A stretch of 64,000 nucleotides of DNA from Actinomycetota bacterium (GTDB taxonomy: Bacteria; Actinomycetota; Acidimicrobiia; IMCC26256; PALSA-555), in contig VGBR01000004.1 in NCBI GenBank assembly GCA_016870355.1, positions 1 to 64,000 on the forward strand, in the 5' to 3' direction. The notes below the pieces were generated by a model. That model did not search any database, was not told where the DNA came from, and saw nothing but the letters and a program-made list of their open reading frames with translations. Position 1 is the stretch's first letter. Every line of letters begins with the position of its first letter. The position numbers and the translations under genes were made by a program. This document shows positions 2,900 through 36,896 of this stretch, piece by piece.

Positions 2900-3505
2900 C
2901 TACGCGGGGACGGCCTCTCTTGGCGCGTTCGGCTCTCTTTCGCTCGGCAAGTAGGAGGTCCAGGCTGGGTCTGGGTTGCCTGCTGTTGCTACTAGCCAGA
3001 GGGCTGCGTGGGGAGCTCTCGGTGTTCTCTTCAGCCTGAGGTTGGCTTCTTGGAGTAGCCGGTCTTCTTTCTTGGCGTTGCAGTTGCGGCAGCTGGCTAC
3101 GACGTTTTCCCAGGTGTGGGTGCCGCCTCGGCTTCTTGGGACTACGTGGTCGATGTTCTCTGCGTTGCGGTTGCAGTACTGGCAGCGGTGGTGGTCACGC
3201 GCGAAGACGGCTCGTCTGCTGAGTGGGACGCGGGTTCTGAAGGGCACGCGTACGAAGTGCACCAGTCGGATGACCGAGGGGGCGGGGATGCTGGTGCGTT
3301 CGGAGCGGAACTCGGCGCCGTTGCGCTCGAGGATCTCCGCCTTCTCCTTGAGCACGAGCACGACGGCTCGGCGGGCCGAGACGACGCAGAGCGGCTCGAA
3401 GCTGGCGTTGAGCAGCAGCGCTCTCCCCAACTCGAGCGACCTCCTCTCGGACCAGACTGGCGAGGAGTCTACCGGCGCGCCCGCGCCGGCTTGGTCCGAC
3501 TCCAT
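2900..3505 (-). CDS. HNH endonuclease family protein
   Basis: The 201-residue frame contains the actinobacterial HNH pattern: ALLLNASFEPLCVVSARRAVVLVL, then VPLSRRAVFARDHHRCQYC, the catalytic region NIDHVVPRSRGGTHTWENVVASC, and a second zinc pair CRNC. The two CxxC pairs hold a structural zinc and the DHVVPRSRGG segment supplies the metal-binding histidines of the beta-beta-alpha-metal fold. Such stand-alone HNH proteins are widespread in actinobacteria; their role is not established. The first ATG lies at the very edge of the 63-bp repeat, so the first ~25 residues (poorly conserved) may not be native, and a start near SLELGRALLLN is possible. Confidence 0.85.
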   Translation of the reverse strand: MESDQAGAGAPVDSSPVWSERRSLELGRALLLNASFEPLCVVSARRAVVLVLKEKAEILERNGAEFRSERTSIPAPSVIRLVHFVRVPFRTRVPLSRRAVFARDHHRCQYCNRNAENIDHVVPRSRGGTHTWENVVASCRNCNAKKEDRLLQEANLRLKRTPRAPHAALWLVATAGNPDPAWTSYLPSEREPNAPREAVPA

Positions 3506-27484: not shown

Positions 27485-28156
27485 TCAGATGTCGAGCGTG
27501 GTGTCGAGGTTGATCCCCGCGCGTCGTAGGATCTTCGCCTTCATACGCACCAGCACATTGCGCGGCGCCGCCGCGATCTCTGTGGCCGTCGTGCGCGCCT
27601 CGTCGAGGACGTCCGCCTGCGACGAGACCCGGCTGACCAGGCCGAGCCGGAGCGCGGCCTCGGCATCGATGCGACGGCCAGTCAGCGCGAGGTCACGCGC
27701 GACTGCTCCACCGACGAGATCGTGCAGTGGCGCGTACACAACCTGACTGAACGCGTGCTCGGGATGCGCGAACACCGCGGTGTGAGCCGCGATCCGAAGG
27801 TCGCACATGGCCGCGAGATCGAATCCACCTCCGTACGCTGGCCCGTTGACGGCCGCGACCGTCGGGAGCGGGAACTCGATCACGGTGCGGTGCCACCGGT
27901 CACTCGACGCCCACAGCTCGTCGGCTCGCTCAGGCTGGGCGAACTCGTCCAGATCGAAGCCCGCGCTGAACACCTCTCCGTCCCCGGTGATGATCACGAC
28001 TCGGCAGCCCTCGTCGGCGGCGAGCCCGTCGAGCGCGTCGCTCATCTGATCGCGGAGGGCGATCGAGAGCGCGTTGCGCTTGTCGGCTCGAGTGAGCGTG
28101 ACGACCGCGATCCCTGCCTCGTCGGGCGCGTCGCAGGCGACGAGCGACTCGCTCAC
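27485..28156 (-). CDS. Enoyl-CoA hydratase/isomerase family protein (short)
   Basis: The 223-residue crotonase has VVTLTRADKRNALSIALRDQM near residue 18, the oxyanion segment GEVFSAGFDLDEF near 60, and AAVNGPAYGGGFDLAAMCDLRIAAHTAVFAHPEHAF near 100-135. It is about 30-40 residues shorter than usual, the loss being at the C-terminal helical region. The GTG start forms a GTGA overlap with the flavoprotein stop, which supports this start over longer readings. Confidence 0.88.
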   Translation of the reverse strand: MSESLVACDAPDEAGIAVVTLTRADKRNALSIALRDQMSDALDGLAADEGCRVVIITGDGEVFSAGFDLDEFAQPERADELWASSDRWHRTVIEFPLPTVAAVNGPAYGGGFDLAAMCDLRIAAHTAVFAHPEHAFSQVVYAPLHDLVGGAVARDLALTGRRIDAEAALRLGLVSRVSSQADVLDEARTTATEIAAAPRNVLVRMKAKILRRAGINLDTTLDI

Positions 28157-29355
28157 GATGCCAGCGCCGCACGCGCGTCGTCGATGCTCGCGCGCTCGCT
28201 CACCAGCCGACGCAGCTGCATCAACACGCGTGGACGGCTGAACGCCACACCGCCGACCAACCGGCCGTTGCGACCGACCGCGGCCGCGAAGCGCAGCTCT
28301 CCGAAGGACCCGTCGACGACCTCGATCGTGTCGTCGCCGCGCACGTGGCCTGCCACCTGGATCTTCACGTCGTACTGATCGGACCACACGAACGGCACGG
28401 GCGCGAACGGTACTGCCGCGTCGTCCGATGTCAGGAGCCGTTGCGCCGCCGCGATCCCCTGCTCGGCTGCGTTCGTCCAGTGCTCCAGGCGCATCAGCTC
28501 GTCGTCGAACAACGGGTTCGGCCAGCGGCAGACGTCTCCCGCGCACACGATTCCCGGAGCTGCGAGCAAGGTCGCGTCACACACGACGCCGTTGTCGATG
28601 GTGAGTCCCGAACCGTCGAGCCATGCCGTCGTGGGCACAACGCCGACCCCGACCACCACCACATCGGCATCGACGGTCGAGCCATCGTCGAGGCGCACCT
28701 GCTCGACCCGATCCTTCCCTTCGAACCCGGCCACGCCCACAGCGGTGCGCAGATCGACGCCGCGGTCTCGGTGCAACCGGGCCAGCACGTTGCCGAGCTC
28801 GGGACCGAGGCCGCGCACCATCGGCGCGGGGAGCGCTTCGAGCATCGTCACGTCGAGGTGTCGTCCCCGACATGTCGCGGCAACTTCGGCGCCGATGAAG
28901 CCGGCCCCGACCACCACCACGCGGGGGTTGCGCTCGAGCTCGGTGCGGATGGCGAGGCAATCGTCGAGGGTCCGCAGCACGTGGACGCCTTCGAGCGAGG
29001 GGGTGTCTGGCAGCTCCCGCGGATGGGCTCCCGTCGCGATCACGCATCCCTCGAACTCGATGCGCTCGCCATCGTCGAGCGTCACCACTCTCCCCGCGAC
29101 GTCGAGGTCGGTCGCCCGCCGTCCGAGCCGGAGGTCGAGCGAAAGGTCGTCGTAGGACTGGCGCCGGAGCGCGATCTCATCGGGTTGAGTCGAGCCGGCG
29201 AGCACGTCCTTCGAGAGCGGCGGACGGTCGTACGGGAGGTGCGCTTCCTCCCCGATCATCACGACGCGCCCGTCGAACCCGAGCCGGCGCAGCTCCTCCG
29301 CCGCGCGCAAGCCCGCCAGTGACGCGCCGACCACTGCGTAGGTCGTCGTCGGCAT
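28153..29355 (-). CDS. FAD-dependent oxidoreductase (ferredoxin/rubredoxin reductase-like)
   Basis: The 400-residue flavoprotein has an N-terminal FAD motif YAVVGASLAGLRAAEELRRLG (6-26), YDRPPLSKDVLAG, CVIATGAHPRELP, the second dinucleotide fold VVVVGAGFIGAEVAATCR near 146-163, GIVCAGDVCRWPNPLF and a reductase C-terminal domain starting near 320. These are typical of reductases that pass electrons from NAD(P)H to ferredoxins of P450s or ring-hydroxylating oxygenases. The P450/ferredoxin pair at 51.5-53 kb lacks its own reductase, so this is a possible partner (inference). TAGGGT lies nine bases before the ATG. Confidence 0.9.
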   Translation of the reverse strand: MPTTTYAVVGASLAGLRAAEELRRLGFDGRVVMIGEEAHLPYDRPPLSKDVLAGSTQPDEIALRRQSYDDLSLDLRLGRRATDLDVAGRVVTLDDGERIEFEGCVIATGAHPRELPDTPSLEGVHVLRTLDDCLAIRTELERNPRVVVVGAGFIGAEVAATCRGRHLDVTMLEALPAPMVRGLGPELGNVLARLHRDRGVDLRTAVGVAGFEGKDRVEQVRLDDGSTVDADVVVVGVGVVPTTAWLDGSGLTIDNGVVCDATLLAAPGIVCAGDVCRWPNPLFDDELMRLEHWTNAAEQGIAAAQRLLTSDDAAVPFAPVPFVWSDQYDVKIQVAGHVRGDDTIEVVDGSFGELRFAAAVGRNGRLVGGVAFSRPRVLMQLRRLVSERASIDDARAALAS

Positions 29356-29489: not shown

Positions 29490-29544
29490 GGCGCAGAGAG
29501 CCGGGGCCCGAATGGCCCGGCGCGGAGAGCCAAGAGTGGAATCG

Positions 29545-30363
29545 ATGACTGATGAAGACCTTCTGTCGACCACCGAGAACAACGTGCGGTGGTTGACGAT
29601 CAACCGACCGGACTCGGGCAACGCGATCACGCCCGACGTGCGCAACCGCATCATCGACCACCTCGCCGAAGCGAATGAGTCCTACGACATCCGCGCCGTG
29701 GTGATCACCGCCAGCGGCGAGAAGCACTTCTGCACCGGCGCGGACCTGCGGGCGGGTGGCGCGCAGCCGCCACCGAAGCCCGAGGGGATGCCCGAGCGGG
29801 TGACCGGCGACGCGTCCCGCATGATCCGCTCCGGGATCCAGCGCCTCATCGGCGGCATCCTCGACTGTGAGAAGCCGGTCATCGCGGCGGTGAACGGCAC
29901 CGCGGCCGGCGGAGGCGCGCAGATCGTCATGGCGTGCGACCTCGCTGTGGCGGCGGACAACGCGCGGTTGATCCAGGTGTTCGTGCGGCGCGGCCTCATC
30001 CCCGACGGCGGCGGCGCATACCTGCTCCCCCGCGTCGTCGGCATGAAGAAGGCCAAGGAGCTCGTGTTCTTCGGCGACGACGTCAATGCCGACGAGGCGG
30101 AGCGGCTCGGGCTCTACAACAAGGTGGTGCCCCAGGCCGAGCTGCACGCGACGGCCAAGGAGTGGGCGGAGCGGCTCGCCTCCGGCCCGACGCGCACGAT
30201 CGGGTACGCGAAGCGACTGCTCAACCAGTCGCCCGATGTCGACCGGGCCACGAGCTTCGAACAGGAATCGCATCTCGTCGAGCTCGTGACGGCCACCGAG
30301 GACTGCATGGAGGGCCGCATGAGCTTCATGGAGCGCCGCGATCCCGAGTTCAAAGGCTGGTAG
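29545..30363 (+). CDS. Enoyl-CoA hydratase/isomerase family protein
   Basis: The 272-residue crotonase shows WLTINRPDSGNAITPDVRNRI near residue 16, GEKHFCTGADLRAGG near 66 and AAVNGTAAGGGAQIVMACDLAVAADNARLIQVFVRRGLIPDGGGAYLLPRVVG near 112-165, where PDGG marks the usual second catalytic-residue position. It probably hydrates or isomerises an acyl-CoA. It is followed five bases later by a thiolase-like gene and then a DUF35 gene, forming a catabolic operon. Confidence 0.92.
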   Translation: MTDEDLLSTTENNVRWLTINRPDSGNAITPDVRNRIIDHLAEANESYDIRAVVITASGEKHFCTGADLRAGGAQPPPKPEGMPERVTGDASRMIRSGIQRLIGGILDCEKPVIAAVNGTAAGGGAQIVMACDLAVAADNARLIQVFVRRGLIPDGGGAYLLPRVVGMKKAKELVFFGDDVNADEAERLGLYNKVVPQAELHATAKEWAERLASGPTRTIGYAKRLLNQSPDVDRATSFEQESHLVELVTATEDCMEGRMSFMERRDPEFKGW

Positions 30364-30368
30364 CTGCC

Positions 30369-31529
30369 GTGGCCAAGGCATTCCTCCAAGACAAGGTCGC
30401 CATCGCCGGGATCGGGCAGACATCGTTCGGCAAGGGGATCGAGGACAGCGAGCTGTCGCTCGGCTGCCAAGCGATCTCGATGGCGCTCGACGAGTGTGGC
30501 ATCGCGCCTTCGGAGGTCGACGGCACTGCGTCGTTCACGATGGAGCTCAACCGCGAGGTCGACATCGCCCGCAACGTGGGCTTCGGCGACGTGACCTTCT
30601 TCTCGCAGGTCGGCTACGGCGGCGGGGCCGGCTGCGGCACCATCTTGCATGCAGCGATGGCCGTCGCCACCGGGCAGTGCCGAGTCGCCGTGGCGTGGCG
30701 AGCCCGCAAGCGCGCCGCGAAGGCGAGTCGGCCGTGGTCGCAGGTACCGGCACGGCTCGACGACCACTGGATGTGGAGCCGCCCGTTCGGGCTGCTTCGC
30801 CCGGTCGACGAGGTGGCGATGCTCACTCGGCGCTACATGCATGAGTACGGCGCCACCCGGGACCACCTGGCGAACGTCGCGATCGCGTTCCGCAAGCACG
30901 CCAACCGCAATCCGAACGCCACGATGCGCGAGAAGACGCTCAGTCGTGAGCAGTACATGGAAGCGCGCTGGATCTCCGAGCCCCTGTGCCTCTTCGACAA
31001 CTGCCTGGAAACCGACGGCGCGCTTGCCGCGGTGCTCGTGCCCGCGGAGCGCGCCAAGGACTTGCCGACGAAGCCGGTGTACGTGCACTCGGCCGCGCAG
31101 GGCATTCCGCCCCAGCACCAGACGATGATCAACTACTTCAACGAGGATCCGCTGCTCGGTCCCTCGTGGGCTGCGGCCGGTCAGCTGTGGGGTGGGTCGG
31201 AGTTCAAGCCCGACGACGTGAAGGTCGCGCAGATCTACGACGCGTTCAGCCCGCTCGTGCCGCTCTCGCTCGAGGGCTACGGCTTCTGCGGACGAGGTGA
31301 AGGCGCGGAGTTCACGAACGACGGCGCGCTCGAGTGGCCGAACGGTCGTCTGCCGACCAACACCGCCGGCGGCGGCATGTCGGAGGCGTACGTGCACGGC
31401 TTCAACCTCGTGCTCGAAGGCGTGCGTCAGATGCGCGGCACGTCGACGAGTCAGGTCGAGAACGCCGACAGCTGTCTCGTCACGAGCGGTGAGGGTGTGC
31501 CGACGAGCGCACTCCTCCTGAGAAATTGA
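30369..31529 (+). CDS. Thiolase-like lipid-transfer protein (Ltp family)
   Basis: The 386-residue protein has the thiolase fold of the Ltp/SCP-X type: VAIAGIGQTSFGKGIEDSELSLGCQAISMALDECGI at the N-terminus, VGYGGGAGCGTILHAAMAVATGQCRVAVAW near 75-105, AQIYDAFSPLVPLSLEGYGFCGRGEG near 285-310 and LPTNTAGGGMSEAYVHGFN near 325. In steroid side-chain degradation such proteins act as retro-aldolases together with a DUF35 OB-fold partner; the DUF35 gene follows here. Catabolism of a sterol-like or branched acyl-CoA is inferred. GTG start five bases after the crotonase stop. Confidence 0.88.
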   Translation: MAKAFLQDKVAIAGIGQTSFGKGIEDSELSLGCQAISMALDECGIAPSEVDGTASFTMELNREVDIARNVGFGDVTFFSQVGYGGGAGCGTILHAAMAVATGQCRVAVAWRARKRAAKASRPWSQVPARLDDHWMWSRPFGLLRPVDEVAMLTRRYMHEYGATRDHLANVAIAFRKHANRNPNATMREKTLSREQYMEARWISEPLCLFDNCLETDGALAAVLVPAERAKDLPTKPVYVHSAAQGIPPQHQTMINYFNEDPLLGPSWAAAGQLWGGSEFKPDDVKVAQIYDAFSPLVPLSLEGYGFCGRGEGAEFTNDGALEWPNGRLPTNTAGGGMSEAYVHGFNLVLEGVRQMRGTSTSQVENADSCLVTSGEGVPTSALLLRN

Positions 31530-31595
31530 CCCAACCATGCGAAGCGAGCGGAGCGGATGCGACGGTGGTGGAATGAGCGGAGCGGAAGCGGAGCA

Positions 31596-32039
31596 ATGGT
31601 GATGATGGAAGCCAAGCTGCTGTTGCCCGACGTCGAAGAAGAGAACGGCGCGCCGTTCTGGGCTGGCGCGGCTCGCGATGAGCTGCTCGTGCAAGCGTGC
31701 GGCGCGTGTGGGAACTGGCGGTTCCCACCGCGACCGATGTGCCCGCACTGTCGATCGGTCGAGACGAAGTGGGAGCGCGCGTCCGGCAACGCCAAGGTGT
31801 GGGGGTTCGTCGTGCCCCATCCCCCACTCCTGCCCGCCTATGCGGAGCTCGCGCCCTACAACGTGATCGTGGTGGAGCTCGACGAGGACCCGACGATCCG
31901 AATGGTCGGGAACCTGCTTGCGTCACCCGATGGCGCCCTCAACGAGATCGACCCGTCGACGATCGAGATCGGCGAGCCGGTGCGCGTCGTCTTCCAGAAG
32001 GTCGACGACGTCACCCTGCCGAGATGGGTTCGGGCCTGA
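31596..32039 (+). CDS. DUF35/OB-fold zinc-ribbon protein
   Basis: The 147-residue protein has the DUF35 layout: an N-terminal helix, a rubredoxin-like zinc ribbon with CGACGNWRFPPRPMCPHC (two CxxC pairs, residues 34-51), then an OB-fold (KVWGFVVPHPPLLPAYAELAPYNVIVVELDED). Members bind and stabilise thiolase-like enzymes and can bind acyl-CoA. The adjacent Ltp-type thiolase is the obvious partner. Starts at ATG 31596 or the ATGs just after; the longer upstream reading covers a repetitive GCGGAGCGGA sequence. Confidence 0.88.
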   Translation: MVMMEAKLLLPDVEEENGAPFWAGAARDELLVQACGACGNWRFPPRPMCPHCRSVETKWERASGNAKVWGFVVPHPPLLPAYAELAPYNVIVVELDEDPTIRMVGNLLASPDGALNEIDPSTIEIGEPVRVVFQKVDDVTLPRWVRA

Positions 32040-32060
32040 CGCCGCGCTCGCCCCGAAAGA

Positions 32061-32092
32061 GAAGAGCCCCGACCCTGAGGTCGGGGCTCTTC
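32061..32092 (+). terminator. Strong 14-bp hairpin ending the crotonase-Ltp-DUF35 operon
   Basis: GAAGAGCCCCGACC (32061-32074) pairs perfectly with 32079-32092 around a ctga loop. It lies 21 bases after the DUF35 stop, and on the other strand 60 bases past the end of the 41-residue gene, so it may act in both directions. Confidence 0.8.
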
Positions 32093-32152
32093 GTACACCG
32101 GGATGGCGGCGGGACGGGGGGAGACCCGCCGCGCCACCGGCGTAGTTCTTGT

Positions 32153-32278
32153 TCAGGCCGCCTTGCGCTCGGCCGCCGGCTCGGTGCCGGTGCGGAGGTC
32201 GGACAGTGCCCGCTCCCACCGGAGCTGCCGAGCGAGCCAAGCCAGTGCCTTCGCACGATCCTGGGTCTCGGTCGCCAT
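32153..32278 (-). CDS. 41-residue protein divergent from MerR regulator
   Basis: A short gene reads MATETQDRAKALAWLARQL and continues RWERALSDLRTGTEPAAERKAA: one charged amphipathic helix with a basic end. It has an unusually good ribosome site, GAGAGGAGG, eight bases before the ATG. It is driven from the same 60-base control region as the divergent MerR gene, whose overlapping promoters are clear. I do not recognise a family. The RBS, the start and the promoter together make it a real gene rather than chance; its function may be tied to the MerR protein. Confidence 0.7.
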   Translation of the reverse strand: MATETQDRAKALAWLARQLRWERALSDLRTGTEPAAERKAA

Positions 32279-32335
32279 GTGTGTCCTCCTCTCGATCTTG
32301 CGGCCCTTGTGCTTTTGTGCACAAGAACCGGTGTA

Positions 32336-32395
32336 TTGACACTGAGAGTATCTACTCATAGTGTAGACGCTGTCAAGTTTCGTGACGGACGTCAC
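32336..32395. promoter_or_regulatory. Overlapping divergent promoters with dyads (MerR / 41-residue gene)
   Basis: TTGACA (32336-32341), a 17-base spacer and TAGTGT (32359-32364) make a textbook promoter for the MerR gene. In the opposite direction TTGACA (32376-32371) with TAGATA 16 bases on serves the small gene. CTACTCA-t-AGTGTAG between them is an imperfect dyad, a likely MerR operator. GTGA-cggacg-TCAC (32382-32395) resembles a Crp-type half-site pair. The stretch is strikingly AT-rich for this genome. Confidence 0.7.
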
Positions 32396-32434
32396 ATTGG
32401 GCATCACCAGGGATGCCCCCCGAGCCGAGGGACG

Positions 32435-33169
32435 ATGACCGACACCACTCCTCCTGCTCCGAGCACGGCCCCTCACGCCGGGGTGCGGATCGACGACCTC
32501 GCCCGCCAAGCGGGACTCACCGTCGGCACCATTCGCTACTACCAGCGTGAGGGGCTGCTGCCGGCGGCTGAGCGCTGCGGGCGGGCCAACCTCTACGGCC
32601 CCGAGCACGTCGAGCGGCTCGAGCGCATCAAGGAGCTCCAGGCCCGTCGCTTCTCGCTCGCCGCGATCAAGGCCCTCCTGGCCGAGCAGCGCGAGGGCCT
32701 CGTCGAGGGGATCTTCGCCGACGTCGGCGGCCGCGCCTACACGCTCGAGGAGCTGATCGAACGGTCAGGGATCGACACCGAGCTGGCCGACGCGCTGCGC
32801 GCGTCCGCGCTCCTGCGTGAGCCCGGTGAGTACGGGCGCGACGCGTACGACGCCGAAGACCTCGACCTGCTCCGCAGCATGGCCGAGCTCCACGCACTGG
32901 GGATGCCCCTGCACGCGCTCGTCGAGCTCGGGCGGATCTATGCCGGCGGCATCGAAGCCACCCAGCTCGAGATCATCGATCTGTTCACCACCGGTGGCTC
33001 GATCCCCTGGTCCGACCACGAGCTCGTCGACTTCCAGGACACCGCAGGCCGCGCCGCGATTGAGATCGTCCCCAAGGCGCGAAAGATCGTCGACTACCTC
33101 CACCACCGAACGATCCAGCGCCTCACCCTCGGAGCGATCGAGCGTGGAGCGCTTCCTCAGGTCGACTGA
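32435..33169 (+). CDS. MerR family transcriptional regulator
   Basis: The 244-residue protein has a MerR DNA-binding domain (residues 17-85): RIDDLARQAGLTVGTIRYYQREGLLPAAER, LYGPEHVERLERIKELQARRFSLAAIKALL. A second, helical domain (YTLEELIERSGIDTELADALRASALLREPGEYGRDAYDAEDLDLLRSMAELHALGMPL) looks like a repeat of the MerR-type fold rather than a ligand pocket. Regulators of this kind occur beside lipid-catabolic genes in actinobacteria. Its own promoter overlaps that of the 41-residue gene. Confidence 0.9.
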   Translation: MTDTTPPAPSTAPHAGVRIDDLARQAGLTVGTIRYYQREGLLPAAERCGRANLYGPEHVERLERIKELQARRFSLAAIKALLAEQREGLVEGIFADVGGRAYTLEELIERSGIDTELADALRASALLREPGEYGRDAYDAEDLDLLRSMAELHALGMPLHALVELGRIYAGGIEATQLEIIDLFTTGGSIPWSDHELVDFQDTAGRAAIEIVPKARKIVDYLHHRTIQRLTLGAIERGALPQVD

Positions 33170-33190
33170 GTACGTAGCCCTCGGCTCGCC

Positions 33191-33278
33191 CCGGGGTGGC
33201 TTCGCCGCCCCGGAACAACAGCGCGCAGCACCAAGTCGCGCCGGGAGGGGCTGACGGGGAGGGCCTGCCCTCCCCGTC
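33191..33278. terminator. Two tandem hairpins between convergent genes
   Basis: CCGGGGTGGC-ttc-GCCGCCCCGG (33191-33213, one G-T pair) is followed by the perfect 12-bp hairpin GACGGGGAGGGC-ct-GCCCTCCCCGTC (33253-33278), whose last base touches the amidohydrolase stop codon. The MerR gene ends at 33169. Together they probably terminate both transcripts. A nearly identical second hairpin is at 46175. Confidence 0.7.
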
Positions 33279-34447
33279 TAATCGTCGAGGTGCCAGATGC
33301 GCGCGGCGTTGCCGCCGACGATGGCCGCCTTCTCGTCGTTCGGGATGTGACCCATCGTGTCTTCGATCACCTTGCGCGAGTACGGCCAGTCGTTGCCGTG
33401 GTGCGGGTAGTCGCTCGACCACATGATGTTGTCGAGGCCAGCCGCGTGCCGCAGCGCGATGCCGGAGCGGTCGGTGATGAAGGTGGCCGCGTTGTTGCGG
33501 TACCAGTAGAACGAAGGTGGGTGCTTGATCGGCAGGTCGCCCCAGACGCGGTTGCGCCAGTAGCGGTCGTCCACCGCTTCGATGAAGTGCGGGATCCAGC
33601 CCACACCGCTCTCGATCCAGCACACCATGAGCTCGGGGAACCGCTCGAACACGCCATTGAAGATCATCTGCGTGATCGCGCCGGCCGTCGCCGAGAACAC
33701 GTTGCTCATCCCACCGATCGCCTTGGCGCGCGTCGCAGCACTCGTCATGTCGTAGAGGCCAGGACCCGACGACGCCGCTTCCGCGGCCTTGCGTTGTGCG
33801 GCCCGCGCCTTCCGGCTGATGATGTTGATGTGGATCGACACCGGGAGGCCCTCGTCGCACGCGGCCGCCCAGAACGGGTCGTCGTCCTCGGAGACGCTCT
33901 CTCCACCTGACGGCCAGTTGGAGATGATCACGCCCTTGGCGCCGCGCGCCTTGGCCTTGCGGATGCCGTCGACCGCGGTATCGATGCCGATCGACGGCAT
34001 CTGGGCCAGGCCGATCAGACGCGTCGGGTCCGGTGCGCAGAACTCCTCGAACAAGAAGTTGTTGTACGCCTCGATGCCGGCGAGCAGGAAGTCGTCGTCG
34101 CTGTCACCGAGAAAGTGGCCGACCGTGCGCTGCGGTGGGAAGAGGAGCTCCGCCCACACGCCGTCGGTGTCCATGTCCTTGAGCCGCTCGGCGCCGTTGT
34201 AGCAACCGGCGCGGGCGTCCTCGTAGGTGACGCCGTACCACTTGAACTCGTCGAACGGCTTGCCCGGGGTCGACACGAGGCCGATCGGGTCGGGCGTGCT
34301 GCCCGCGTGCAACCACGCGTCGCCGCCCTCGTGGTCCTTCACGAGCTGCGGTGCCTTGTCCTGGTACTTCTCCGGGAGCCAGTTCTTCCAGAGGTCCGGC
34401 GGCTCGAGGATGTGGCAGTCGGCGTCGACGATTCGCAGTTCGGACAT
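33278..34447 (-). CDS. Amidohydrolase-2 family protein
   Basis: The 389-residue protein begins RIVDADCHILEPPDLW, the DxH start of amidohydrolase-2 TIM barrels, and continues with VYGV-like LLFPPQRTVGHF, LPVSIHINII (a metal His), and the C-terminal IMWSSDYPHHGNDWPYSR with the catalytic Asp. Related enzymes decarboxylate or hydrolyse aromatic and acyl compounds; the substrate is unknown. GAGGGG precedes the ATG. It diverges from the CoA-transferase gene across a TGAC-N6-GTCA dyad. Confidence 0.9.
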   Translation of the reverse strand: MSELRIVDADCHILEPPDLWKNWLPEKYQDKAPQLVKDHEGGDAWLHAGSTPDPIGLVSTPGKPFDEFKWYGVTYEDARAGCYNGAERLKDMDTDGVWAELLFPPQRTVGHFLGDSDDDFLLAGIEAYNNFLFEEFCAPDPTRLIGLAQMPSIGIDTAVDGIRKAKARGAKGVIISNWPSGGESVSEDDDPFWAAACDEGLPVSIHINIISRKARAAQRKAAEAASSGPGLYDMTSAATRAKAIGGMSNVFSATAGAITQMIFNGVFERFPELMVCWIESGVGWIPHFIEAVDDRYWRNRVWGDLPIKHPPSFYWYRNNAATFITDRSGIALRHAAGLDNIMWSSDYPHHGNDWPYSRKVIEDTMGHIPNDEKAAIVGGNAARIWHLDD

Positions 34448-34506
34448 GCAAACCCCTCGTTCGTTCCAGCAGATGCGCGTCCAATTGTGGCCGCGAATGC
34501 CAAGAG

Positions 34507-34525
34507 TACGCTGACGCCGCTGTCA
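34507..34525. promoter_or_regulatory. TGAC-N6-GTCA operator between divergent genes
   Basis: TGAC-gccgct-GTCA (34512-34525) begins on the last base of TACGCT (34507-34512), a -10 candidate for the plus-strand gene. It lies 25 bases before the CoA-transferase GTG and 64 bases before the amidohydrolase ATG. Matching dyads sit at 40138 and 56451 with the same geometry. Confidence 0.65.
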
Positions 34526-34550
34526 GGCGACAACCCCTCTGGAGTGACCC

Positions 34551-36896
34551 GTGGCCACGTTGTTGGATGGACTTCGCGTCGTAGACCTCGCTGGCGAGCC
34601 CGGCGCGATCGCTGCCCGGGTCCTGGGTGACCTCGGCGCCGACATCGTCATGGTCGAACCCACCGGCGGCTCTCCCCTGCGGGCGATCCCCACCCACTTC
34701 CTCGCATGGGGTGCGGGCAAGGCCAGCCTCGAGGTCTCGGGGCCCGACGACCCCGCCCTCGACGACATCTTGAAGGCAGCCGACGTCGTGATCGACACCC
34801 CGGGCGAAGCCGGCACGTTGCAGGTCGATCCCAGCCGAGCCCCCCAAGCCGTGTGGGTCAGCATCACGCCCTTCGGCTTGACCGGACCCCGCGCCGGGTG
34901 GCGGGCGTCTGATCTTGGCGTGCTCGCTTCGAGCGGGAACATGTACGCCACTGGAGATCCGGACCGCGCGCCGGTGCGTTGCACCGAGCCTTCGGGGTAC
35001 GCGCACACCGGAGGCGAGGCTGCGTTCGCGGCACTGAGCGGCTTGTGGACCGGCAAGCCCCAACGCGTCGACCTCTCGATGCAGGAGTGCGTCGACATCG
35101 CGAGCATGGCGCAACCGGCGCGCTACCACCGCGGCGGTTACCGCGGTGCGCGCCAGGGCGCCATCATGGGCCGAGCGCGCGAGATCTGGCCGTGCAAGGA
35201 CGGCTACGTGTCGTTCGGGCTCCGGGGCGGGAAAGCGCGCATCCCGAGCCTGAACCTCATCACCAAGCTGGTGGCGGACGACGGCATCGACGCGTCGGTG
35301 CTCCTCGCGCAGGACTGGGACACGTGGGACCTTCCCACTGCGCCCGAAGAGGCGATCCGTGGCGTCGAGAAGGCGCTCCTCGAGTACTTCTCGCGGCACA
35401 CGATGCAGGAGCTCTATGACTTCGCGTGCGAGACGAACATGATGCTCGCACCGGCGAACTCCCCCAAGGAGATCCTCGCGAGCAAGCAGCTCGAGGCGCG
35501 GGGGTTCTTCGCACCGCTCGGTGACGCCAAGCAGTTCGCCGTGTCGTTCGCGCAGGTGCGCTCGAACGACGGTGACGTCGACCAGATCTCACCGCGTTCG
35601 CCTGCTCCTGAGCTAGGGACCGCGCGCACGACGTGGGACGGCGCCGCGAGTGGCTCGGGACCATCGGGATGGAAGCCCGGCCAAGGCTCGTGGCACGAGC
35701 TCAAGCTGTTGGAGTTCGGCTCTGGCGCCGCGGGTCCCATCGCGACTCGATACTTCGTGGAGCACGGGGCGACGGTCATTCGAGTCGAGTCGGCATCCCG
35801 ACCTGACTTCCTACGCATGATGGCGATCGGGCCGAGCAATCCGCACGGTGTCGAAGGGTCCGAGCTGTACGACGCGCTGAACGTCGGCAAGAAGAACGTG
35901 ACGCTCAACCTCAAGACTCCTGAAGCCGTCGCGCTCGTCAAGCGGCTGGTGGTCGAGTGGGCCGACGCGATCGCCGAGAACTACGCGCCGAAGGCCATGC
36001 GCAAGTTCGGTCTCGACTACGACTCACTCGTCGAGGTGAAGCCCGATCTGGTGATGATCAGTGCGTGCCTCAACGGTCAGACCGGTCCGCACAAGGACTA
36101 CCCCGGGTTCGGCGGCCAGGGATCTGCACTCTCTGGGTTCAACTGGCTGACGGGATGGCCCGACCGCGAGCCCGTCGGCCCGATGGGCACGATCACCGAC
36201 TCGCTCGCGCCGCGCTACGTCGCTACCGGTCTCGCGGCGGCGCTGCACTACCACCGCCGCACCGGTCGCGGTTGCTACCTCGACCTCGCCCAGGTCGAGT
36301 CGGGCATCTGGACGTTGCAGCCATGGTTGCTCGACTACCAGCTCGACGGCTTCCTCGGTGTGCGTGACGGCAACCGTTCGCGCCGCGCCGTGCCACACGG
36401 CGCGTTCCCATGCGCCGACGAGGGTGGCGTCGGTGATCGATGGGTGGCGATCGCGTGCTGGACCGACGACGAGTGGTCGATGCTCGCATCGGTCATCGGC
36501 GTCGACGATCCCGGGCTCGCGAAGTTCGCGGACCGCATGGCGCGCATCGACGAAGTCGAGAGCATCGTGGGCGCGTGGACGAAGTCACGCCAGCGGTTCG
36601 AGATCGCCGAGCAGCTGCAGGGGCTCGGACTCGAAGCGGTGCCGGTCTTCGACTTCGGCGATGTGCACCACGACCCCCAGCTCGCGCACCGCGGCCACTT
36701 CGTGGCGCTCGACCACCCGTTCATGGGGCCTGGCTTCTACGAGCACGACGGCTTCCGCATCGCCGACGCGCCCGCCGAGGGCTACGACCGCGCCAGCCCC
36801 ACCATGGGCCAGGACAACGACTGGGTGCTCGGCGACCTCTTGGGGTTGTCAGCCGAAGAACAGCACAGACTCAAAGCGGCAGGCGTCGTCGAGTAG
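34551..36896 (+). CDS. Tandem-fused CaiB/BaiF CoA-transferase family protein
   Basis: The 781-residue protein consists of two class III CoA-transferase domains in one chain. Domain 1 (about 1-360): LLDGLRVVDLAGEPGAIAARVLGDLGADIVMVEP, GPRAGWRASDLG, QRVDLSMQECVDIAS. Domain 2 (about 380-781): LKLLEFGSGAAGPIATRYFVEHGATVIRVES, DALNVGKKNVTLNLKTPE, PGFGGQGSALSGFNWLTG, CYLDLAQVESGIW. Single-domain members are about 400 residues. At the position of the formyl-CoA transferase nucleophile Asp (MQDA) both halves have Glu. It probably activates or racemises an acyl-CoA of the catabolic region. No plus-strand gene follows directly. Confidence 0.9.
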   Translation: MATLLDGLRVVDLAGEPGAIAARVLGDLGADIVMVEPTGGSPLRAIPTHFLAWGAGKASLEVSGPDDPALDDILKAADVVIDTPGEAGTLQVDPSRAPQAVWVSITPFGLTGPRAGWRASDLGVLASSGNMYATGDPDRAPVRCTEPSGYAHTGGEAAFAALSGLWTGKPQRVDLSMQECVDIASMAQPARYHRGGYRGARQGAIMGRAREIWPCKDGYVSFGLRGGKARIPSLNLITKLVADDGIDASVLLAQDWDTWDLPTAPEEAIRGVEKALLEYFSRHTMQELYDFACETNMMLAPANSPKEILASKQLEARGFFAPLGDAKQFAVSFAQVRSNDGDVDQISPRSPAPELGTARTTWDGAASGSGPSGWKPGQGSWHELKLLEFGSGAAGPIATRYFVEHGATVIRVESASRPDFLRMMAIGPSNPHGVEGSELYDALNVGKKNVTLNLKTPEAVALVKRLVVEWADAIAENYAPKAMRKFGLDYDSLVEVKPDLVMISACLNGQTGPHKDYPGFGGQGSALSGFNWLTGWPDREPVGPMGTITDSLAPRYVATGLAAALHYHRRTGRGCYLDLAQVESGIWTLQPWLLDYQLDGFLGVRDGNRSRRAVPHGAFPCADEGGVGDRWVAIACWTDDEWSMLASVIGVDDPGLAKFADRMARIDEVESIVGAWTKSRQRFEIAEQLQGLGLEAVPVFDFGDVHHDPQLAHRGHFVALDHPFMGPGFYEHDGFRIADAPAEGYDRASPTMGQDNDWVLGDLLGLSAEEQHRLKAAGVVE

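Follow-up and report, generated by a model that had tools for sequence, protein, structure and literature searches.

The closest described counterparts of the locus presented here are the classical MerR-type activators (MerR, CueR, CadR, SoxR). In the excerpt of PMC5045206 dealing with their promoters, a spacer of 19–20 bp and a binding site centred 7–8 bp from the -35 box are given for them. A related arrangement was found at positions 32153–33169 of the window (the whole 64-kb stretch of DNA that was analysed), where a small gene on the minus strand and a gene for a MerR-type regulator on the plus strand diverge from one AT-rich control region. Like the classical systems, the locus combines a MerR-type helix-turn-helix (HTH) domain, a dyad among the promoter boxes and a divergent gene pair. 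Unlike them, it shows spacers of only 17 bp (+) and 18 bp (-), its dyad is centred about 10 bp away from the -35 box on the MerR side, and the opposite gene encodes a small protein.

The small protein itself recalls another described system. According to an excerpt of PMC7652416, a terminal Ala-Ala is the most important element of substrates degraded by ClpXP. Like ssrA-like ClpXP degrons, the small protein carries a C-terminal Ala-Ala on a tail predicted to be without structure; it differs from them at position -3, which is not Leu. A search of open-licence PubMed Central papers for MerR regulators with a divergent small protein yielded nothing on point. We propose, with a probability of roughly 0.55, that both genes form a two-gene module, in which a MerR-type regulator with one dedicated operator controls the small gene through that operator. 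The features of the locus are summarized in Table 1.

Table 1. Features of the gene pair, its control region and its neighbours in the window.
Feature	Position	Strand	Remarks
Ferredoxin-reductase-type flavoprotein	28153..29355	-	neighbour
Enoyl-CoA hydratase	29512..30363	+	conserved neighbour
Thiolase	30360..31529	+	conserved neighbour; start codon not settled
ChsH2-like OB-fold/zinc-ribbon protein	31557..32039	+	conserved neighbour, convergent with small gene
14-bp stem-loop between small gene and convergent ChsH2-like gene	32061..32092	.	putative bidirectional terminator
Small gene, 41 aa (MATETQDRAKALAWLARQLRWERALSDLRTGTEPAAERKAA)	32153..32278	-	conserved family, pN/pS 0.16; predicted helix 2-30, low-confidence tail
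Last two codons of small gene, Ala-Ala	32156..32161	-	conserved C-terminal tail, likely ClpXP degron
Ribosome-binding site GAGAGGAGG of small gene	32285..32293	-	identical string also before the start codon at 3448 (-)
-35-like box TTGACA, MerR side	32336..32341	+	at least 5 of 6 in 12/38 loci, exact in 5
Operator dyad ACACTGAGAGTATCTACTCATAGTGT (consensus ACACTGAGAGTANNTACTCTCAGTGT), 26 bp	32339..32364	.	putative MerR operator
-10 box GATACT, small gene	32347..32352	-	spacer 18, overlaps dyad centre; at least 4 of 6 in 28/38 loci
Weak -10-like box TAGTGT, MerR side	32359..32364	+	spacer 17; at least 4 of 6 in 0/38 loci
-35 box TTGACA, small gene	32371..32376	-	exact, at fixed distance, in 24/38 loci
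CRP-like site CGTGACGGACGTCACA	32381..32396	.	beside dyad; at least 8 of 10 in 31/38 loci
MerR-type regulator, 244 aa	32435..33169	+	N-terminal MerR HTH, C-terminal part all-helical
Amidohydrolase (Amidohydro_2)	33278..34447	-	conserved neighbour, convergent with MerR gene
Double family III CoA-transferase	34551..36896	+	conserved neighbour

The gene pair and its distribution

Both genes of the pair described by the initial annotation were present as reading frames, one of 41 residues from 32278 to 32153 (-) and one of 244 residues from 32435 to 33169 (+). Scanning the contigs of the named genomes with a profile of the MerR-type regulator identified 75 loci, and in 38 of them the MerR gene has the small gene as its divergent neighbour. 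At a MerR E-value below 1e-90 all 35 testable loci possessed the divergent small gene; the three further pairs contained a truncated MerR (L104, L110, L119). Three loci whose MerR gene is no more than 150 bases away from the end of its contig (L076, L107, L111) were left out of this count. The 34 testable MerR loci without the small gene all scored weaker than 1e-77 and comprised L099, L102, L105, L106, L108, L109 and 28 more distant ones. A search for the pair in relatives had been suggested beforehand, together with the notion that a short frame missing beside a conserved MerR gene would speak against it. This did not occur: a conserved, co-inherited pair was found in the 38 loci, with the small gene kept next to all 35 testable close MerR homologs, and the initial observation was borne out more strongly than it had been put.

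Starting from the small protein, the own genome and 60 relatives were searched at the protein level, and 54 of these 61 genomes gave a match at E ≤ 1, a loose cutoff which admits chance matches. At 28 of the first 32 small-gene loci a MerR homolog adjoined on the opposite strand. The exceptions were L002, L003, L020 and L022, with L022 at a contig edge and L003 not family-like and hence dropped from the counts. Among the 28 genomes of the order with at least 90% completeness, 17 contained both genes adjacent to each other and 8 contained neither. The other three carried the small gene with a MerR fragment at a contig edge (G007), MerR at a contig edge (G010) and MerR alone (G012). In the latter, the MerR homolog (E 1.5e-80) has kept an operator-like sequence, and the place of the small gene on the opposite side is taken by a ferredoxin reductase gene. 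Scoring the best candidates per genome, up to 36 for the class and up to 18 for the phylum, the small gene was detected in at least 39 of 198 sampled genomes of the class, all members of the order, and in a sample of 396 phylum genomes at least in the own genome, in G026 and in G228, which belongs to another class. Due to these numbers of candidates, little weight can be placed on absence elsewhere.

Within the order, the pair is present in the complete genome of IMCC26256 (Actinobacteria bacterium, CP011489.1), a designation whose number is presumably, by its form, that of a culture collection. The excerpt of PMC5962788 places IMCC26256 at the deepest branch of the class and calls it uncultivated; MerR and "small protein" are not mentioned in that excerpt. 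The draft genome G034 harbours two MerR/small-gene pairs (L077, L079), each with its own operator, and one of the two small proteins is similar to those found in a different family of this order; transfer or a contaminating contig is therefore possible. Four loci (L067, L072, L107, L110) come from public records titled Bifidobacterium breve which carry genes of this Acidimicrobiia order; these titles look wrong.

The small frame was found to be under purifying selection with a pN/pS of 0.16 (0.41 synonymous and 0.067 nonsynonymous changes per site), calculated from 18 pairwise, mutually non-independent comparisons of a 20-codon core. On the basis of this value and the observed conservation, a chance frame was rejected. 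Overall, the pairing of MerR and small gene and the coding status of the latter are strongly supported by these sequence comparisons. A reading as leader peptide was rejected, since the next gene is convergent and separated by the stem-loop, leaving no regulated gene downstream in the same transcript. Due to this stem-loop, which was absent from the output of a scan for T-run terminators, the small gene looks like a single-gene unit. A toxin-antitoxin reading was rejected as well, since nothing in the analysis, which for the small protein covered Pfam-A, NCBIfam and PDB sequences, provided support.

Operator, promoters and regulator

The initial annotation had described two facing TTGACA boxes over 41 bases, with dyads in between, in an AT-rich island. 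The boxes at 32336–32341 (+) and 32371–32376 (TGTCAA, i.e. TTGACA on the minus strand) indeed span 41 bp, and 32336–32376 was the only facing TTGACA pair spanning 20–60 nt in the 64 kb. The five 71-bp stretches of lowest GC content in the window all start at 32306–32313, with a GC content of 0.42–0.44 compared to 0.68 overall. A conserved dyad of 26 bp lies within 32336–32376 and is kept better than the left-hand TTGACA. The string GAGAGGAGG precedes the small gene as described; its ranking as the best ribosome site of the window has to be shared with an identical copy in front of the start codon at 3448 (-).

For each of the 38 intergenic regions, the top-scoring match to ACACTGAGAGTANNTACTCTCAGTGT reached 16–24 of 24, while 1,900 mononucleotide shuffles averaged 11.9 and did not exceed 16. 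Thus, 34 of the 38 exceeded the shuffle maximum and four (L071, L090, L092, L119) only equalled it. As the consensus was derived from the same 38 regions, a genome-wide scan served as independent test. Allowing up to 3 mismatches, 18 dyad sites were detected in 17 of 58 genomes of the order, all 18, judged by their coordinates, in the intergenic region of a MerR/small-gene pair; the reversed pattern gave 0 sites in the same scan. The own genome contained one site. The 41 genomes without a site at 3 mismatches say nothing about other targets, and weaker operators may exist in any of the genomes. In a profile scan of the window the top site reached 41 bits and the next one, a shifted overlap of the same site, 7 bits. 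A second, weaker dyad site was located 45 bp away in L094 and L100.

A simple scan of 32000–33300 for sigma-70-like promoters returned one candidate, TTGACA-18-GATACT (-), with 10 of 12 matching positions (shuffled mean 0.0). Since the left -35 box is retained in only 12 of the 38 loci and a MerR-side -10 box with 4 of 6 positions in none, the start site of the MerR transcript is unsure. The dyad centre coincides with the small gene's -10 box, about 20 bp from the -35 box of that gene, and falls inside the MerR-side spacer. By this geometry, repression appears likelier than activation as the mode of MerR action, because the spacers miss the length known from the classical activators. Beside the dyad, a CRP-like sequence (TGTGAN6TCACA) reached at least 8 of 10 positions in 31 of the 38 loci (1.7% in the shuffled control) and at least 9 in 27 (0.03%).

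The regulator possesses a MerR-type winged HTH at residues 18–84 (PF13411, E 2.5e-24). The best structural matches of its model cover about residues 13–98, and the remainder was predicted to be all helical, ending in long helices at 159–186 and 208–238. In the HTH, CadR aligned with Z 12.6 and an rmsd of 1.7 over 72 residues, SoxR with Z 12.3 and an rmsd of 1.2 over 69 residues. The top Foldseek rows of the model were chains of Rv1264, an adenylyl cyclase of mycobacteria, and of its regulatory domain Rv1264N (E ~1e-4, rmsd 14–15 Å over the long alignment). Rv1264N binds oleic acid. The corresponding family Ad_Cy_reg (PF16701) was detected in 11 of 36 MerR relatives, with a best value of 6.3e-6, and not in the window protein. 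Rv1264 was not listed in a profile search of the PDB with the C-terminal part, nor was Rv1264N among 50 VIA-align rows. Searches of open-licence PubMed Central for Rv1264N with oleic acid and for MerR with Ad_Cy_reg returned nothing on point. The C-terminal domain of the mycobacterial MerR-type protein Rv1828 aligned with Z 9.2 and an rmsd of 6.2 over 117 C-terminal residues, at 15% identity; as the domain is helical, such a Z may reflect no more than a shared arrangement. Based on the weak Ad_Cy_reg match, a lipid-type ligand for the C-terminal domain is a lead, no more. A viral origin of the regulator was considered as well and rejected: 4 pattern matches in viral contigs did not confirm a relative.

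Distant relatives of the regulator from other Acidimicrobiia (L113–L141, about 30% identical) occur in a different context. Many of them stand first in a menaquinone-type operon which comprises genes for a chorismate-binding enzyme, a MenD-like TPP enzyme (clustered in 19 of 27 loci), an alpha/beta hydrolase and a MenC-like enzyme, all assigned by Pfam on one or two representatives. L119, which is a pair, and L137 were dropped from this neighbour table. A related dyad precedes the MerR gene itself with a score of at least 15 in 22 of 28 loci. These observations suggest a MerR-type regulator of menaquinone synthesis among the distant relatives.

The small protein and its relatives

The small protein gave no Pfam-A or NCBIfam match, nor did one TetR-linked member described below, and the best hit of a PDB sequence search (E 1) was at chance level. 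It represents a family for which neither Pfam nor NCBIfam offers a model and which is tied to a single lineage of regulators. Mean column identity amounts to only about 32%, yet W21, E22, L25, R29, A40 and A41 were invariant in 36 members, and W14, Q18, L19 and L28 nearly so. For L072 and L074 the start codons were picked as GTG by script and are probably too long, with the tails unaffected. The single helix announced by the initial annotation agrees with the predicted structure, a helix of residues 2–30 (confident except at its ends) followed by a non-helical, low-confidence tail of residues 31–41. In our reading, A11, W14, Q18, W21, L25 and L28 are spaced 3-4-3-4-3, as would be expected for one helix face.

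Ala-Ala formed the C-terminus of all 38 complete small proteins (that of the window and 37 others), following a linker variable in both length and sequence; L083, cut by a contig end, was left out. Position -3 was occupied by K, R, Q or A in 36 of the 38 and position -4 by R in 24. Among 170 conserved proteins from the neighbourhood (script-selected frames with a minimum length of 120 residues and homologs in at least five loci), none ended in Ala-Ala, and neither did any of the MerR C-termini inspected. The tmRNA tag of the own genome is AEDNDLALAA and thus ends in ALAA. Due to the conserved tail and the related end of the tag, a ClpXP degron is the likeliest reading of the Ala-Ala ending.

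The family is also found beside TetR genes. The own genome carries a second member (C2:29257, L002), which is divergent to a TetR gene and overlaps an ABC ATPase gene by GTGA. Further TetR-linked members were detected in G017, G030 and, in the other class, G228, and together they come from the own and nine other genomes. In 148 genomes of the class 12 TetR matches were obtained, with a family-like frame in front of 7 (L161–L165, L167, L170) and not of the other 5. A search of the phylum with the TetR query gave 30 loci, with a small frame at L173 (G228) and at L174, the own-genome locus again, and not at the remaining 28. Like the MerR-paired proteins, these members show a family-like core before a regulator gene and a palindromic promoter region. 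In contrast to them, only 3 of 9 unfused members end in Ala-Ala, and in some cases an ABC ATPase gene follows the small frame or overlaps with it. G016 and G030 carry the small frame upstream of TetR, both being on one strand. In G049 (L167) the small frame is continuous with the ABC ATPase frame, a putative translated fusion. An ABC exporter ATPase gene was observed on the far side of the small frame from TetR in L002, L145/L164, L165 and L167.

Possible roles of the small protein

The initial annotation had offered two roles for the small protein, a modulator of its regulator or a small effector. Our data speak in favor of the effector, with all 18 operator sites located at pairs, while the modulator became less favoured. 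As a feedback modulator, the helix of the small protein would dock on the dimerization or effector helices of MerR and switch it on or off. The tight, divergent and co-regulated pair, the regular spacing of the conserved positions along the helix and the long helices at the end of the MerR model are all consistent with such a contact. However, a small protein acting only on MerR would leave a circuit without visible output, as a second operator was not found with up to 3 mismatches allowed, and more distant MerRs exist without any small gene. Moreover, the occurrence of the family core beside TetR genes argues against docking specific for MerR. We therefore regard the modulator as possible, though rather doubtful. 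Less probable still is a role of the small protein as subunit or chaperone for the enzymes encoded by the adjacent gene cluster, with MerR as pathway-specific regulator. The pair is surrounded by a conserved cluster (29512–36896) in which the thiolase gene adjoins the ChsH2-like gene and is accompanied by the hydratase, amidohydrolase and double CoA-transferase genes, a neighbourhood that points to acyl-CoA or sterol-side-chain-like catabolism. On the other hand, a count over 29 of the 39 stretches with a pair, that of the window among the 39, found each of the five families in 16–19 only, a number limited by contig ends and the 6-kb flanks. In IMCC26256 (L081) the pair is present, while thiolase, ChsH2-like, amidohydrolase and CoA-transferase genes were not found within the stretch read, and the TetR-linked relatives have other neighbours. 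An enzyme partner is consequently unlikely.

The small gene might also be an accessory or remnant, a translated, dispensable frame of leader type carried along with the conserved MerR promoter. Its extreme shortness, the lack of Pfam and NCBIfam matches and its absence from G012 would fit. Purifying selection, the invariant W, E, L, R and Ala-Ala positions in an otherwise divergent protein, and the convergent next gene behind a strong stem-loop make this very unlikely. The small protein is probably the output of the regulator and not only its modulator, because the scan allowing up to 3 mismatches revealed no further operator.

For the two-gene module the following course of events can be envisaged. 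MerR would bind the dyad and repress the small gene, whose -10 box carries the dyad centre, as well as its own gene. Binding of a ligand by the helical C-terminal domain, possibly a lipid or an acyl-CoA of the surrounding pathway, would make MerR release the operator or change its state, with a CRP-family protein at the neighbouring site as potential second input. The small protein would then be made, offering a helix with Trp and Leu conserved on one face, then a flexible linker and the Ala-Ala tail, the last of which would lead to its destruction by ClpXP. As a short-lived partner binding another protein via its helix face, it may generate a pulse of output. A more far-reaching and improbable version is a genetically controlled degron carrier, whose helix face grips a target and whose Ala-Ala tail hands this target to ClpXP. 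Such a design needs a helix grip, a variable linker and an invariant tail, to which the conserved helix face, the linker and the Ala-Ala ending of the small protein would correspond.

If the degron carrier were true, a MerR switch with a single operator would set how much of a protein is present by producing the agent of its destruction, and the relatives beside TetR genes might represent a similar device directed at other targets. Annotation usually misses small proteins; in the present case, one encoded by a gene of 126 bases is tied to a regulator across an order of Acidimicrobiia. Its conserved interaction face, the likely degron and the finding of no second operator at the employed cutoff make the role of such regulator-linked mini-proteins directly testable.
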